From positions 1 through 40,505 of the IMG/VR virus record IMGVR_UViG_3300022223_000012: a stretch of 40,505 nt of DNA. One strand, given 5' to 3'. Below are positions 30,630-37,386 of this stretch, piece after piece. This DNA comes from a virus. The notes beneath the pieces were generated by a model that searched no databases, was not told the DNA's origin, and was given only the letters and a program-made list of their open reading frames with translations. Every line of letters begins with the position of its first letter. Positions within the stretch are counted from its first letter, which is position 1. The position numbers and the translations under genes were made by a program.

Positions 30630-32533
30630 GCTGCCGGCCTCACATACGCACCGCTGCTGCATATATTCACATCGCTGGCACTTTCGTTAAATGTCTTGCG
30701 CAGTATCAGTGCCCGGCGCGCATCAATCGTGTGGTCGTTTTTCTTGTTATAGATTAAATGCTTTTGCCCCTGCTTGGCCGTGTGGTTGGTGTGGTCGTTT
30801 ACCACGTCCGGGTCGTAGGGCATCAACCATGTGCCGGCCTGGAATCGCGGCGTGATTAAATCCTCGGTGGCCAGGTTCTTGGCCGGCTTGCGTACTGGTA
30901 CCTGCTTGCCGTTCTTTTCTTCCATCAACGCTTCGCCGTCCTCGCTCTGGCAGTCCATGGCATTGGCAAAGTTAAAGCCGGAAAGATAGTTTTTAAAATC
31001 AGCGGCGCTGTATGTTTCCTCACCCTGCAGCTGCTGCACCACCGCCGTGCCGGCGTTGCCAAAGTCTGCGCCCCAGTTGGTAAAAAACTGGCGGCTGCCG
31101 GTGTCGGCGTTGCTGTAATACATGTGCAGGCAATAAATCAGCGCGCACTGCAGCGTATAGTCCACACCCTTGGCATGTATGCGCAGGCGGTCGCGCAGCT
31201 GGTGGCCCACTTCCTGGCTGATTAAAATCTCGGTGGGGTCATTGCTAAAGCCCAAATCCGCACCGCCCCATAACACGCCGTGCGGCAGTGGCTCGGCGTA
31301 ATCGTTCAGCAGTTCCATTACCGCATCCATGCGCGTGGTTTCATCTTTAAACCGGCGCAGGTCCATGTGCTTGTCGGCCAGGTGCCGTGGCGTGCCCAGC
31401 TTCTTGCTGTCGTTAACGGTCAAATCAACCGCATAGGCCAGCACGTGCAGGGTTTCGTCTTTCTCGTTAGCGGTTAGTTTCAGCGCCACATACTCGGCAA
31501 TGTGGCGCGTGTTGCGCATTATCATGTCGAATGGCCATACCGCGTTCTCTTGCTGGCCGTGCAGGCCGTGCACGTTGCGCACGTAGCCGCTGGATGTTTC
31601 ACCGCCATATTGTGCAATGGCTTTTTGCTTGCGCACATCATCCCAAAACGGGCTGGGCATCAATGTTTTGGGCCAATGGAATAACCGCAGCCCAGGCAAG
31701 CCCGGCGCCAGGTTGGGTATAGCCTCCTGCGTCATGCGGTAATAATCCGTGGTGGTGTCACCATCGGGCACAGAATAATACCGCCGGCGGCAGCCAGGCA
31801 TTAAAGACCGGTGAAACTCTGACCACACCACCGGCGCCTTAACCTTGGCCGCCTCGTCAAACAATGAAAACGCATTAACATGCACACCGCGGAAGGCCTC
31901 ACCATCATGCCCACCGGGCCGAAAGTACACCAGGCCCATGCCGTTTTTGGTGCACGTCGGGCCTTTAAATCGCATTAGGTAGTGCGGGTTTTTTTTCGGC
32001 TTGAGCCAAAAGCGATTGATTAGCGGCGTGGTGCCGTTAAAGCCATCACTAACGCCGACGTGCAGCTCTATGTCGCGTATGATTTCATCAAGGTGTGTTT
32101 GCTGCGGCGCCGCCACCAGCACAGAAGGATTGCGCACAGTAAAGCCAGCCCCCGTGCACTGCGCCCAAAGTATCAGCGCCGTAATTTCTCGGGTCTTGCC
32201 CACCTCGGCACCGTCCTGGTGTATAGCGTCCTGCATCCATGCGCGTATGCTTTCCTCTTGATAATCAAAAAAAGTGTATGGCACCTCGTCCGGGTCGCCC
32301 CACTGCGCGACCTGCGCCTCGGTCGGGTTAGGCTCACGCAAAAACGCCCGGCACCACAACACCGGATCCTCGCCAATATAGCGCAGCTTGGCCATGTCCA
32401 GCGTAATACCCTCAATATCACCACGCGCCAGCCGCTCCGGGTGCAGCTTACGCGCCAACAGCCACCGCTCAAACGCCGCCGAGTCCACCACCCCGCGGCG
32501 GTCAACCTGCTGCACGTCGGCCGGTTTAGCCAT
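30626..32533 (-). CDS. terL: Terminase large subunit
   Basis: This 635-aa protein has an ATPase domain with a Walker A-like DGAEVGKT (107-114) and Walker B AFSLFDEA (221-228). Upstream is the adenine-binding YQEESIRAWM. The C-terminal nuclease begins GGADLGFSNDPTE (near 418), with a further acidic region toward TPRFQAGTWLMPYDPD. The protein pumps DNA into the prohead and cuts it. The first 12 residues (MAKPADVQQVDR) are identical to those of the upstream Dam-type gene because of a 52-bp repeat. The start overlaps that gene by 8 nt. Confidence 0.85.
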   Translation of the reverse strand: MAKPADVQQVDRRGVVDSAAFERWLLARKLHPERLARGDIEGITLDMAKLRYIGEDPVLWCRAFLREPNPTEAQVAQWGDPDEVPYTFFDYQEESIRAWMQDAIHQDGAEVGKTREITALILWAQCTGAGFTVRNPSVLVAAPQQTHLDEIIRDIELHVGVSDGFNGTTPLINRFWLKPKKNPHYLMRFKGPTCTKNGMGLVYFRPGGHDGEAFRGVHVNAFSLFDEAAKVKAPVVWSEFHRSLMPGCRRRYYSVPDGDTTTDYYRMTQEAIPNLAPGLPGLRLFHWPKTLMPSPFWDDVRKQKAIAQYGGETSSGYVRNVHGLHGQQENAVWPFDMIMRNTRHIAEYVALKLTANEKDETLHVLAYAVDLTVNDSKKLGTPRHLADKHMDLRRFKDETTRMDAVMELLNDYAEPLPHGVLWGGADLGFSNDPTEILISQEVGHQLRDRLRIHAKGVDYTLQCALIYCLHMYYSNADTGSRQFFTNWGADFGNAGTAVVQQLQGEETYSAADFKNYLSGFNFANAMDCQSEDGEALMEEKNGKQVPVRKPAKNLATEDLITPRFQAGTWLMPYDPDVVNDHTNHTAKQGQKHLIYNKKNDHTIDARRALILRKTFNESASDVNICSSGAYVRPAA

Positions 32534-32548
32534 TGGCGGCGGCCTCCA
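32497..32548 (-). repeat. 52-bp direct repeat at the Dam/terminase junction
   Basis: This is identical to 33374-33425. It spans the last 7 codons and stop of the Dam-type gene and the first 12 codons of terminase. It is the downstream flank of the Dam-type cassette. Confidence 0.95.
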
Positions 32549-33410
32549 GCATTGTTAACTGCCCGCCATTCTTTTCTATGGCGGCATCGTTTAACCATAA
32601 AACTTCTGTGCGTGGTTGCGCGCCGTCTGCCAGCGCGGGCCGCTCAACTCTATGCCATGATTTATACAGGCTATCGTATAGGCTGCTGCTGTATCCTGAT
32701 AACACCACCATACCCCTAAGTGAGTGTAAACAATCGGCCAGCGCCGCGTGGTCGCTATTTGTCATTTCATGCTCGTATAAATGCTTTTTGCCATTTATCT
32801 TTCTAGTATTGTGCACGTATGGTGGATCTACATAATGTAGCGTGCTCTCAGTGTCATGTTGTTGCATTACCTGCAGTGCGTCGCGGTTTTCGATAACCAC
32901 TCCGCGCAGGCGAGAAACAAAGCTGGCTATGTGGCTTGGGTAATTGGCAAAGTCGTGGGCGGGTGTGGTGCCGCATCTGTTGGCATTGGCCCTAAATCCC
33001 GTGGCGTGCTTTCCGTTAACCGACGCACTGCCAAATCCTGCCAGGCTGCGCAGTATTGTTAATCGGGCGCGCTCCACATCGTCCGCAATGTTTACAATGT
33101 CCTGGTTACCGCTGTTTTCAAACTCCACTCGCGCGAATGGTGTTAGGGTTAGCGCACTAATTAACCTGCTTGCCTTTTCATTGTCGCGCAGCACTTTGAA
33201 CACATTAACCACGGTATCCCATTTATCGTTATAGACTTCCGCATAGCTGCGTGGCTTGCGCATCAATACCGACGCCGCGCCGCCGTATGGTTCTACATAA
33301 ATGCGGTGCTGTGGCAAGTGGCTAATAATCCAAGGCGCCAGCAACCACTTGCCGCCGTGGTATCTCAAAACAGGGCGGTCAACCTGCTGCACGTCGGCCG
33401 GTTTAGCCAT
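32526..33410 (-). CDS. DNA adenine methyltransferase (Dam/D12 class) in a repeat-flanked cassette
   Basis: This 294-aa protein shows D12-class features: LRYHGGKWLLAPWI (15-28, N-terminal GGK), YVEPYGGAASVL (38-49, SAM-binding motif I), YNDKW (60-64) and LHYVDPPYV (191-199, catalytic DPPY). It transfers methyl from SAM to adenine N6. No restriction endonuclease is nearby, so it is probably an orphan protecting phage DNA or acting in regulation. Its first 12 residues copy the terminase N-terminus and its last 7 (LEAAANG) copy the end of the upstream methylase. Both come from 52-bp perfect repeats, so the gene looks inserted. Confidence 0.85.
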   Translation of the reverse strand: MAKPADVQQVDRPVLRYHGGKWLLAPWIISHLPQHRIYVEPYGGAASVLMRKPRSYAEVYNDKWDTVVNVFKVLRDNEKASRLISALTLTPFARVEFENSGNQDIVNIADDVERARLTILRSLAGFGSASVNGKHATGFRANANRCGTTPAHDFANYPSHIASFVSRLRGVVIENRDALQVMQQHDTESTLHYVDPPYVHNTRKINGKKHLYEHEMTNSDHAALADCLHSLRGMVVLSGYSSSLYDSLYKSWHRVERPALADGAQPRTEVLWLNDAAIEKNGGQLTMLEAAANG

Positions 33411-33425
33411 TGGCGGCGGCCTCCA
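33374..33425 (-). repeat. 52-bp direct repeat at the methylase/Dam junction
   Basis: This is the upstream copy of the repeat at 32497-32548, with start-to-start distance 877 bp. It encodes the end of the DPPY methylase (LEAAANG) and the start of the Dam-type gene (MAKPADVQQVDR). Recombination between the copies would remove the Dam-type gene and rejoin the methylase and terminase perfectly. Confidence 0.95.
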
Positions 33426-34208: not shown

Positions 34209-34418
34209 TTATTGCCCCCGCAAACCCCTAACCCACACCACACAAAACCCAACACTAACCACAAACATGCCCCACTGCTGCGCCTGCCAGGTAATAACCA
34301 GCCAAAACGGTTGCCCGATCAAACCCACCACCGACGCAACCCAGCGCCGGCGCTCGCCACCTTCCAGCAACAACGCCACCGACACCAGCCCCGTTAATGC
34401 AATAATGGTTTGAAACAC
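34209..34418 (-). CDS. Small membrane protein, 69 aa
   Basis: GTG 34418 overlaps the preceding TAG. Two or three hydrophobic helices (FQTIIALTGLVSVALLLEGG; VVGLIGQPFWLVITW; MFVVSVGFCVVWV) are separated by a basic turn. Small proteins of this kind occur near terminase genes in several phages, but I cannot name a function. Confidence 0.6.
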   Translation of the reverse strand: MFQTIIALTGLVSVALLLEGGERRRWVASVVGLIGQPFWLVITWQAQQWGMFVVSVGFCVVWVRGLRGQ

Positions 34419-35170
34419 TATTCCACCACCTCCGCCACGCCATCCAGTGGCGGGCTGTCAAAAACTTTTGATTTCGCCACCGCCCGCATTAACTCCGTTA
34501 CCGCGTCAGTGTCGGCCTTGCCTTGCTTGAGCGCGGCTTGCGCTTTCGGTGTAGCCATCAGCTCCGGCAAGTTAATACCCACAGCCTCCAGCAGTTTGAT
34601 ATACGGCAGTATGGCCGGGTTAATAATGGGTATTTCGTACGGTGTGCCCGTCGTCGGGTTAATCACCACCTCGCCCATTTTGTTAATAATCGGCTTGGCC
34701 ACCACCGGTTCACCCACCAGCGCAAAGCGCAGGTTGTCCAGTATCTCCATGGCGCCGGCCTGCGCGCTGGCCAGCATGCCATACGTGTGCACCACGTCCT
34801 CGTCATGCAGCGCCGACATAATGGCGTGATACGCCTCCACAAAAACCTCTTTGTCCAGGCAATCACCGCCCGGCTGCGTCTTGCCATCTTCCACCAGGCC
34901 GCAGCTGGCAAACTTCGCGCATGTACTTTTGCAAGGTTTGTATAGCGCGCCCAGCGCCTGCCACTCCATGCTGCGAGACTTCGCGGCGTACTCGCCGGTT
35001 TTCCAGGCATTGCGGCTGCTGGCCGCCTTGCCCTCGTCAGTGACTGGCCCGGTGGATTTCTGCGCGTTCGCCTGCCGCGCCGCCAGCGCCTGCTCACTCA
35101 TGGTATAGCGCCGTTTCGGTGCAACCAGCAGCTGGGTGGTATTGTTCGGGTTATCGTCTGCCACGGTCAC
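34418..35170 (-). CDS. Probable small terminase subunit-type protein
   Basis: GTG 35170 overlaps the previous TGA, giving 250 aa. The N-terminal ARQANAQKSTGPVTDEGKAA, then SSRNAWKTGEYA, is a motif common in phage proteins next to terminase genes. A four-Cys cluster follows (CKSTCAKFASCG with a later GDCLDKE), possibly binding a metal. The rest is helical. By order (two genes before the methylases and terL) it is the best candidate for the DNA-recognition subunit, but no HTH is obvious. Confidence 0.55.
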   Translation of the reverse strand: MTVADDNPNNTTQLLVAPKRRYTMSEQALAARQANAQKSTGPVTDEGKAASSRNAWKTGEYAAKSRSMEWQALGALYKPCKSTCAKFASCGLVEDGKTQPGGDCLDKEVFVEAYHAIMSALHDEDVVHTYGMLASAQAGAMEILDNLRFALVGEPVVAKPIINKMGEVVINPTTGTPYEIPIINPAILPYIKLLEAVGINLPELMATPKAQAALKQGKADTDAVTELMRAVAKSKVFDSPPLDGVAEVVE

Positions 35171-36824: not shown

Positions 36825-37232
36825 TTAATCTTCACCTTCATGCCCCTGTAATTGGTGGGCATCGTGGTTATTACAGCGATTCACAATCATCTGCTTATCC
36901 TCTCCGCTGTCTTTCAAGGCTTCTGCAAGCGGCCTTCTGGGCACTGCATCTACATAGCCCATCATCGAAATACACTTGTCCTTGTATTCCTGTAGCTGTG
37001 TATTAGCCTCATCCCGTTCCTGCTTTACGGTTGCCAGTTGCTCGCTCAGTTCTGCTATTCTTGCGCGATAGGAAAGCCATGCGTCAGCATATTCAGGGTC
37101 AAGAGCAATAGATAATTCTTCTCGCGCTTGTTCAAGCTGGGCGCGGAGGGATTCGTTTTCGCCAAGCATTTCCATCATAAGGCTGTCGAATTCTTCTGCA
37201 TTGGCGGTAAATCTTTTTCTGATGTCGTTCAC
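36825..37232 (-). CDS. Coiled-coil protein, 135 aa
   Basis: GTG 37232 follows GAGAGGATAATTAA. The middle of the protein is a long charged coiled-coil (about 20-95; ENESLRAQLEQAREELSIAL, then IAELSEQLATVKQERDEANT). The tail is His- and Asp-rich. Similar coiled-coil early proteins occur in phages; function is unknown. Confidence 0.65.
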   Translation of the reverse strand: MNDIRKRFTANAEEFDSLMMEMLGENESLRAQLEQAREELSIALDPEYADAWLSYRARIAELSEQLATVKQERDEANTQLQEYKDKCISMMGYVDAVPRRPLAEALKDSGEDKQMIVNRCNNHDAHQLQGHEGED

Positions 37233-37236
37233 TTAA

Positions 37237-37386
37237 TTATCCTCTCCGCTGTCGTTTTATGCTGTAGTATCCAGCTCTGTAAGAGTTCAACATTGGGTGC
37301 TGCAGCCATCGTACTGGCAACCCTTGTTTTGCGTCCTGCTTGCCTTGGTCATACATTGACATGCGGCGCTGTCTCGTCTTACTCAT
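37237..37386 (-). CDS. Small basic protein, Rmf/CrpP-like, 49 aa
   Basis: This gene was found by hand translation: ATG 37386 to TAA 37237. A near-perfect AGGAGGTAGCGCT site precedes it. The product is basic (MSKTRQRRMSMYDQGKQDAK, then a GLP turn, then NSYRAGYYSIKRQRRG). The 'YxxGxxxAxxG ... W ... YxxGY' spacing resembles ribosome modulation factor/CrpP-type small proteins that phages and bacteria carry. It starts 5 nt after the integrase stop. Gene reality is well supported; the family is tentative. Confidence 0.6.
   Translation of the reverse strand: MSKTRQRRMSMYDQGKQDAKQGLPVRWLQHPMLNSYRAGYYSIKRQRRG

Follow-up and report, generated by a model that had tools for sequence, protein, structure and literature searches.

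Two mycobacteriophage cases are the closest described precedents for the locus analysed here. In Island3, compared with Brujita, the 3′ end of the inserted gene 68 repeats the 3′ end of the upstream gene over about 60 bp, a sequence that is single-copy in the relative, and in LRRHood, compared with Cali, a 1.35-kb cargo (genes 43-46) lies between 29-bp direct repeats that are single-copy in close relatives; recombination between the copies was proposed for Island3 and Brujita, and both gain and loss were considered for the two pairs (PMC3029335). Phages of clusters K and EF also have repeats at ribosome-binding sites, the start-associated sequences, with motifs of about 13 bp (PMC7302621). Mosaic evolution has long posed the question of how genes are added to tight, overlapping, essential phage operons without breakage. 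Here, we describe a locus in the IMG/VR virus record IMGVR_UViG_3300022223_000012 (40,505 nucleotides, hereafter the window) in which a Dam-type methylase gene is flanked by two identical 52-bp copies of a gene junction, directly upstream of the gene for the terminase large subunit (TerL). This gene was probably inserted by a recombination event that duplicated the junction between TerL and the methylase gene preceding it, which we refer to as MTase A.

As in Island3 and LRRHood, cargo at a gene boundary lies between direct repeats derived from the host phage, and because the published precedents concern single boundaries, the window locus represents a known process in a clean, two-sided form. 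The Island3 repeat comprises a gene end only, without a borrowed start or ribosome-binding site and with an orphan gene as cargo, and no cargo gene of LRRHood was reported to take both its start and its stop from the repeat. In the window, in contrast, an entire overlapping junction just ahead of an essential packaging gene is repeated, and one gene draws its start and its stop alike from it. The start-associated sequences differ in that their motifs are short and dispersed, whereas here a single gene is enclosed by two copies of a junction.

The repeat, reported in an earlier note made from the sequence alone, was confirmed at exactly the coordinates given there (Table 1), with a spacing of 877 bp. 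Both junctions, MTase A/Dam and Dam/TerL, are one 52-bp sequence, TGGAGGCCGCCGCCA-ATGGCTAAACCGGCCGACGTGCAGCAGGTTGACCGCC on the minus strand, which is present only twice in the whole record; its 20-nt core had no third match in the window even with 3 mismatches allowed. A repeat by chance is excluded because of the length of the identity. The unit comprises 15 nt ahead of the ATG and 37 nt from the ATG onward and is a complete translation start, composed of the Shine-Dalgarno sequence GGAGG (the first letters of the unit, TGGAGG, are that of TerL), a 9-nt spacer, the ATG and 12 codons. Because the stop codon TAA of the upstream gene falls within the unit, its end (..LEAAANG-stop) overlaps MAKPADVQQVDR by 8 nt (ATGGCTAA) in each copy, all on the minus strand. 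Shine-Dalgarno sequences and overlaps are thus preserved at both junctions, as the note had claimed.

Because TerL relatives start alike and the overlap recurs before TerL, the unit belongs to TerL. The N-termini of relatives at 45-57% identity read MAANLSPEIKQVYDREVLD (locus L165 of our collection), MAKLSDEARQIKDRCVVD (L008) and MPKILTPEQKIIKDRCVVD (L014), compared with MAKPADVQQVDRRGVVD in the window, and the 8-nt overlap RTGGCTAA is found at TerL in L012, after TerS, and following other genes in L023/L180, L024/L049, L026, L027 and L045. The start MAKPADVQQVD occurs in none of the 83 Dam relatives examined, which begin with M..RPVLRYHGGK, and in a structure model of the Dam-type protein residues 1-11 and 285-294 have a predicted local distance difference test score (pLDDT) <50, whereas the core folds as Dam. 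These comparisons indicate that the first 11-12 codons of the Dam-type gene are TerL-native and foreign to the Dam family, in agreement with the earlier proposal that the gene begins with codons of the terminase.

The end of the gene looks mixed. Native Dam tails such as ..QLTLLEAAS (L185), ..YDLLEAA (L222) and ..LEAAE (L231, L240) often hold the ribosome-binding site for the next gene; because tails of the LEAA type are native, the LEAA of the window gene may be its own, and only the final codons, the stop and the overlap seem acquired. Of the idea that the gene ends with the last seven codons of the upstream methylase, this leaves the final codons, stop and overlap standing and LEAA in doubt, and those seven codons are better described as part of the TerL ribosome-binding site lying inside the upstream gene. 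Gene tails ahead of TerL often encode the Shine-Dalgarno sequence as E-A (L010, L165 and L167). We also considered the MTase A tail LEAAANG as a trace of an earlier TerL junction and dropped this candidate, since tails within the MTase A family vary too much for a verdict.

Insertion is favoured over loss everywhere else because relatives lack Dam at this site, because of the gene order in L107 and because of the low guanine-plus-cytosine (GC) content of the insert, and we infer that the direction was gain. In most of approximately 98 TerL relatives, a TerS-like gene directly precedes TerL or one small gene lies between them; none has a duplicated junction or a Dam gene between the TerS-like gene and TerL, and PF02086 was found in 2 of the 24 related records searched. 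Only the distant relative L107 has MTase A next to TerL, in the order TerS-MTase A-TerL with 4-bp overlaps and without Dam, which is the order expected before the insertion; its proteins are only 43-51% identical, and its MTase A-TerL adjacency is possibly independent. The GC content of the stretch between the repeats (Table 1) compares with 58.8 ± 3.1% for window stretches of the same size, 7 of 379 of which are equally low.

The proposed ancestor would have had MTase A overlapping TerL at a single junction, and a Dam-type gene from elsewhere would have been inserted exactly there, the 52-bp junction being copied in the process. By template switching, a 3′ end finishing within TerL codon 12-13 could have paired with Dam DNA at the 4-bp CGCC ('DR|R' in TerL, 'RP' codons in Dam), Dam would have been copied, and synthesis would have rejoined the phage at the string TGGAGGC.. 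of the ribosome-binding site, 52 bp upstream of the exit point, a sequence that tails of Dam-type genes often natively carry. Runs of at least 8 nt shared with the unit start occur in 7.7% of native Dam tails versus 1.0% of internal windows, so a modest degree of microhomology is naturally provided by the ribosome-binding site where the route requires it. As the outcome, Dam would have gained the ribosome-binding site and start of TerL together with last codons and a stop, TerL and MTase A keeping theirs unbroken. Recombination between the copies would delete 877 bp and, as the earlier note had pointed out, restore a single clean methylase-terminase junction with both genes intact.

Other cargo between duplicated junctions, which the note had anticipated in other phages, was indeed found. 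A scan of the window and 259 fetched loci, 2.64 Mb in all, for exact two-copy repeats of at least 24 bp located 300-2600 bp apart yielded 19 repeats; the loci were chosen for their homology with TerL, MTase A or Dam, and the figure is not an unbiased rate. In L149, a small gene ending ..EAWPAK meets a DUF3310 gene at a junction that is present twice, enclosing 1,521 bp, and the first cargo open reading frame (ORF) starts with codons of the DUF3310 gene and continues as a C-terminal RmrT fragment, followed by RmrA. Its relative L148 has one junction copy and no cargo, resulting in an empty/filled pair. As in the window, a tight two-gene junction is duplicated around cargo whose first ORF has the start codons of the downstream gene; unlike in the window, an empty-site relative exists, the copies (44 bp exact, within 112 bp at 87.5% identity) have diverged outside the 44 bp, and the cargo, the genes and the phage are different ones. 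The L149 cargo (1174-2590) is a RosmerTA-like pair in which RmrT is only C-terminal (profile positions 155-201 of 207) and RmrA is full-length, perhaps an antitoxin retained as counter-defence.

A second Dam-type gene, found apart from the scan since its repeat is GC-rich, lies in L238 (3971-5305) between exact 25-bp junction copies (..GEEGAA-stop/GTGAGCG) 890 bp apart. Like the window locus, it is a D12 methylase gene between exact junction copies with Shine-Dalgarno sequence, upstream stop and downstream start; it differs in the repeat length, a GTGA overlap, unrelated neighbours and a 17-bp core that is present in three copies at successive junctions, the third at the next junction. The earlier note had held that its reading would be refuted if all relatives with the Dam-type gene had diverged termini and no repeat, and in part this is so: all 83 have other termini, but one, L238, has a junction repeat of its own. 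Likenesses at one boundary were found in L042 (portal end, 41 bp), L066 (TerL end, 77 bp) and L081 (portal-gene end, 28 bp), and in L226 28 bp of ribosome-binding site plus ATG stand ahead of two successive genes. Together, these findings in other phages suggest that this route for adding genes to crowded genomes is a recurring one.

Regarding individual loci, the portal-gene end of L042 (9279-10074) is duplicated on either side of an insert of 743 bp that has two ORFs on the minus strand, one of them helix-turn-helix-like, and the TerL 3′ end of L066 (9719-10275) is duplicated 434 bp downstream (123 bp at 94% identity, 77 bp exact). In the window itself, a 27-nt repeat (36895-36921 and 37237-37263, 85% identity, 17 nt exact) holds the Shine-Dalgarno sequence of the ORF at 36825-37232 and recurs near the end of the same ORF, possibly an older, decayed junction duplication.

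Several points weigh against, or limit, the reading of insertion by a junction-duplicating template switch. No close single-copy relative is present in the collections searched, and formal room is left for loss by the relatives; a first genome-contig scan for relatives, a degenerate junction pattern scan of viral contigs and a single-protein TerL scan of viral contigs, for which alignment-based searches are needed, gave no match. The Dam donor was not found either, the best full-length Dam relatives standing at about 57-64%, and several comparisons rest on sequences at 45-60% identity. The microhomology on the left side, 4 bp, is weak and was spotted post hoc, since microhomology was examined once the junctions were already known. 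Finally, L149 may owe its repeat to homologous exchange with a different phage and not to template switching. Such an exchange is also the main rival for the window, although we regard it as unlikely: a partner phage that already had Dam beside the junction would have added Dam and the second copy by a single crossover in the 52-bp homology, in a linear concatemer or circle, which would make the repeat the substrate and not the product. Homologous recombination was proposed for Island3/Brujita (60 bp) and LRRHood/Cali (29 bp) (PMC3029335), and the divergence around the L149 copies is as expected from exchange with a diverged relative. However, it only shifts the origin, because an earlier event must have placed the TerL start on Dam, and our searches found no phage with such a partner arrangement.

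Considerably less probable is that the unit represents a conserved module for translation whose copies selection or gene conversion has kept identical, like the start-associated sequences of cluster K, and which is hence uninformative on insertion. The unit does coincide with the ribosome-binding site and overlap, RTGGCTAA recurs before TerL (L012, L023, L024, L026, L027 and L045), L238 has its three 17-bp copies, and cluster EF phages have repeated ribosome-binding-site motifs (PMC7302621). Against this, the copies stay identical for 37 nt of coding sequence, synonymous positions included, although the two proteins encoded are unrelated, and the unit has two matches only, where many dispersed copies would be expected of a start-associated motif, the known ones being about 13 bp long (PMC7302621). 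The unit also folds no more stably than shuffled sequence (z near 0), and a structure-based RNA role was dropped for that reason. We consider it very improbable that the second copy was made by the assembler, even though the sequence is a metagenomic contig: each copy is fused in frame to coding sequence that is unique, and the overlaps are correct; such repeats vary in other contigs (25, 28, 41, 44, 52 and 77 bp), unlike a fixed word-length error, and 52 is, to our knowledge, not a usual assembly word length. The least credible origin is a transposon-like or site-specific element with target-site duplication, which direct repeats flanking an insert might evoke; the 825 bp encode Dam only, with no recombinase gene and no terminal inverted repeat reported, the viral-contig scan recovered the unit from no other phage, and 52 bp is, as far as we know, too long for the usual target duplications.

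Insertion with duplication of the junction thus remains our preferred explanation, and its product is fresh enough to be read base by base, the duplicated piece being a translation start region. Because each overlapping junction packs Shine-Dalgarno sequence, spacer, start and stop into about 20-50 bp, we tentatively raise the possibility that such junctions in phage operons are generic insertion points, where shared ribosome-binding-site sequence seeds junction-duplicating recombination and incoming genes are given a complete start and stop. If true, defence and counter-defence genes could join essential operons, and be excised from them precisely, with no need for a dedicated mobile element. 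Since unrelated phages show the same arrangement with cargo of the methylase or toxin-antitoxin type, the idea can be tested, and annotators have a signature of recently gained or lost genes.

Table 1. Coordinates of the repeat copies, their translation signals and the surrounding genes in the window
Feature	Position	Strand	Remark
Repeat copy 1	32497..32548	-	Dam end / TerL translation start (Shine-Dalgarno, spacer, ATG, 12 codons)
Repeat copy 2	33374..33425	-	MTase A end / Dam translation start
TerL Shine-Dalgarno GGAGG in copy 1	32543..32547	-	9 nt ahead of ATG
Dam Shine-Dalgarno GGAGG in copy 2	33420..33424	-	
ATGGCTAA, Dam stop / TerL start overlap, 8 nt	32526..32533	-	
ATGGCTAA, MTase A stop / Dam start overlap, 8 nt	33403..33410	-	
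Inter-repeat stretch, 825 bp	32549..33373	-	GC 51.2%
TerS-position gene	34418..35170	-	homologous to gene preceding TerL in MACPNOA1
Small ORF, 69 amino acids, between TerS-like gene and MTase A	34209..34418	-	
MTase A, predicted N6/N4-type methylase, 267 amino acids	33403..34206	-	PF01555
Predicted Dam-type (D12) adenine methylase, 294 amino acids, borrowed start codons	32526..33410	-	PF02086
Predicted terminase large subunit TerL, 635 amino acids	30626..32533	-	terminase fold; relatives phrog_2

On the minus strand, the gene order is TerS-like gene, 69-amino-acid ORF, MTase A, Dam-type methylase, TerL, small ORF and portal. By profile (PF02086, E=6e-23), motif (YVDPPY) and fold, the Dam-type gene is assigned to the D12 (Dam/DpnM) adenine methylases; the top Foldseek match of its model, built on a shallow alignment of nine sequences, was E. 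coli Dam (E=4e-14). The enzymology is presumably that of Dam. GATC is the most depleted 4-base palindrome in the window (34 seen, 75.9 expected, ratio 0.45, versus 0.84-1.07 in six relatives), which is compatible with the predicted GATC specificity of the enzyme but no proof of it. TerL itself had no Pfam match in the profile search of window proteins; the phrog_2 terminase profile matched 3 of 7 TerL relatives, and the fold, modelled likewise on a shallow alignment and poorly in the ATPase part, matches T4 gp17 and the G20c terminase nuclease (template-modelling score 0.69 of target for G20c), so profile and nuclease fold identify it as a predicted terminase large subunit.

The C-termini of the Dam-type relatives carry Q-x(1-2)-[LIM]-[FLI] in 28 of 84 non-redundant tails (shuffled mean 4.7, maximum 10), a motif that resembles the sliding-clamp-binding motif and is less enriched in MTase A tails (11 of 54 versus 2.8). 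Another terminase-adjacent methylase position was observed in L171 (9826-10446), where a D12-like match, weak at 27%, sits between the TerL and portal genes. In Microcystis phage MACPNOA1 (L003, 4296-6467), a gene annotated as 'glycerone kinase' is homologous (43%) to the portal protein of this family.
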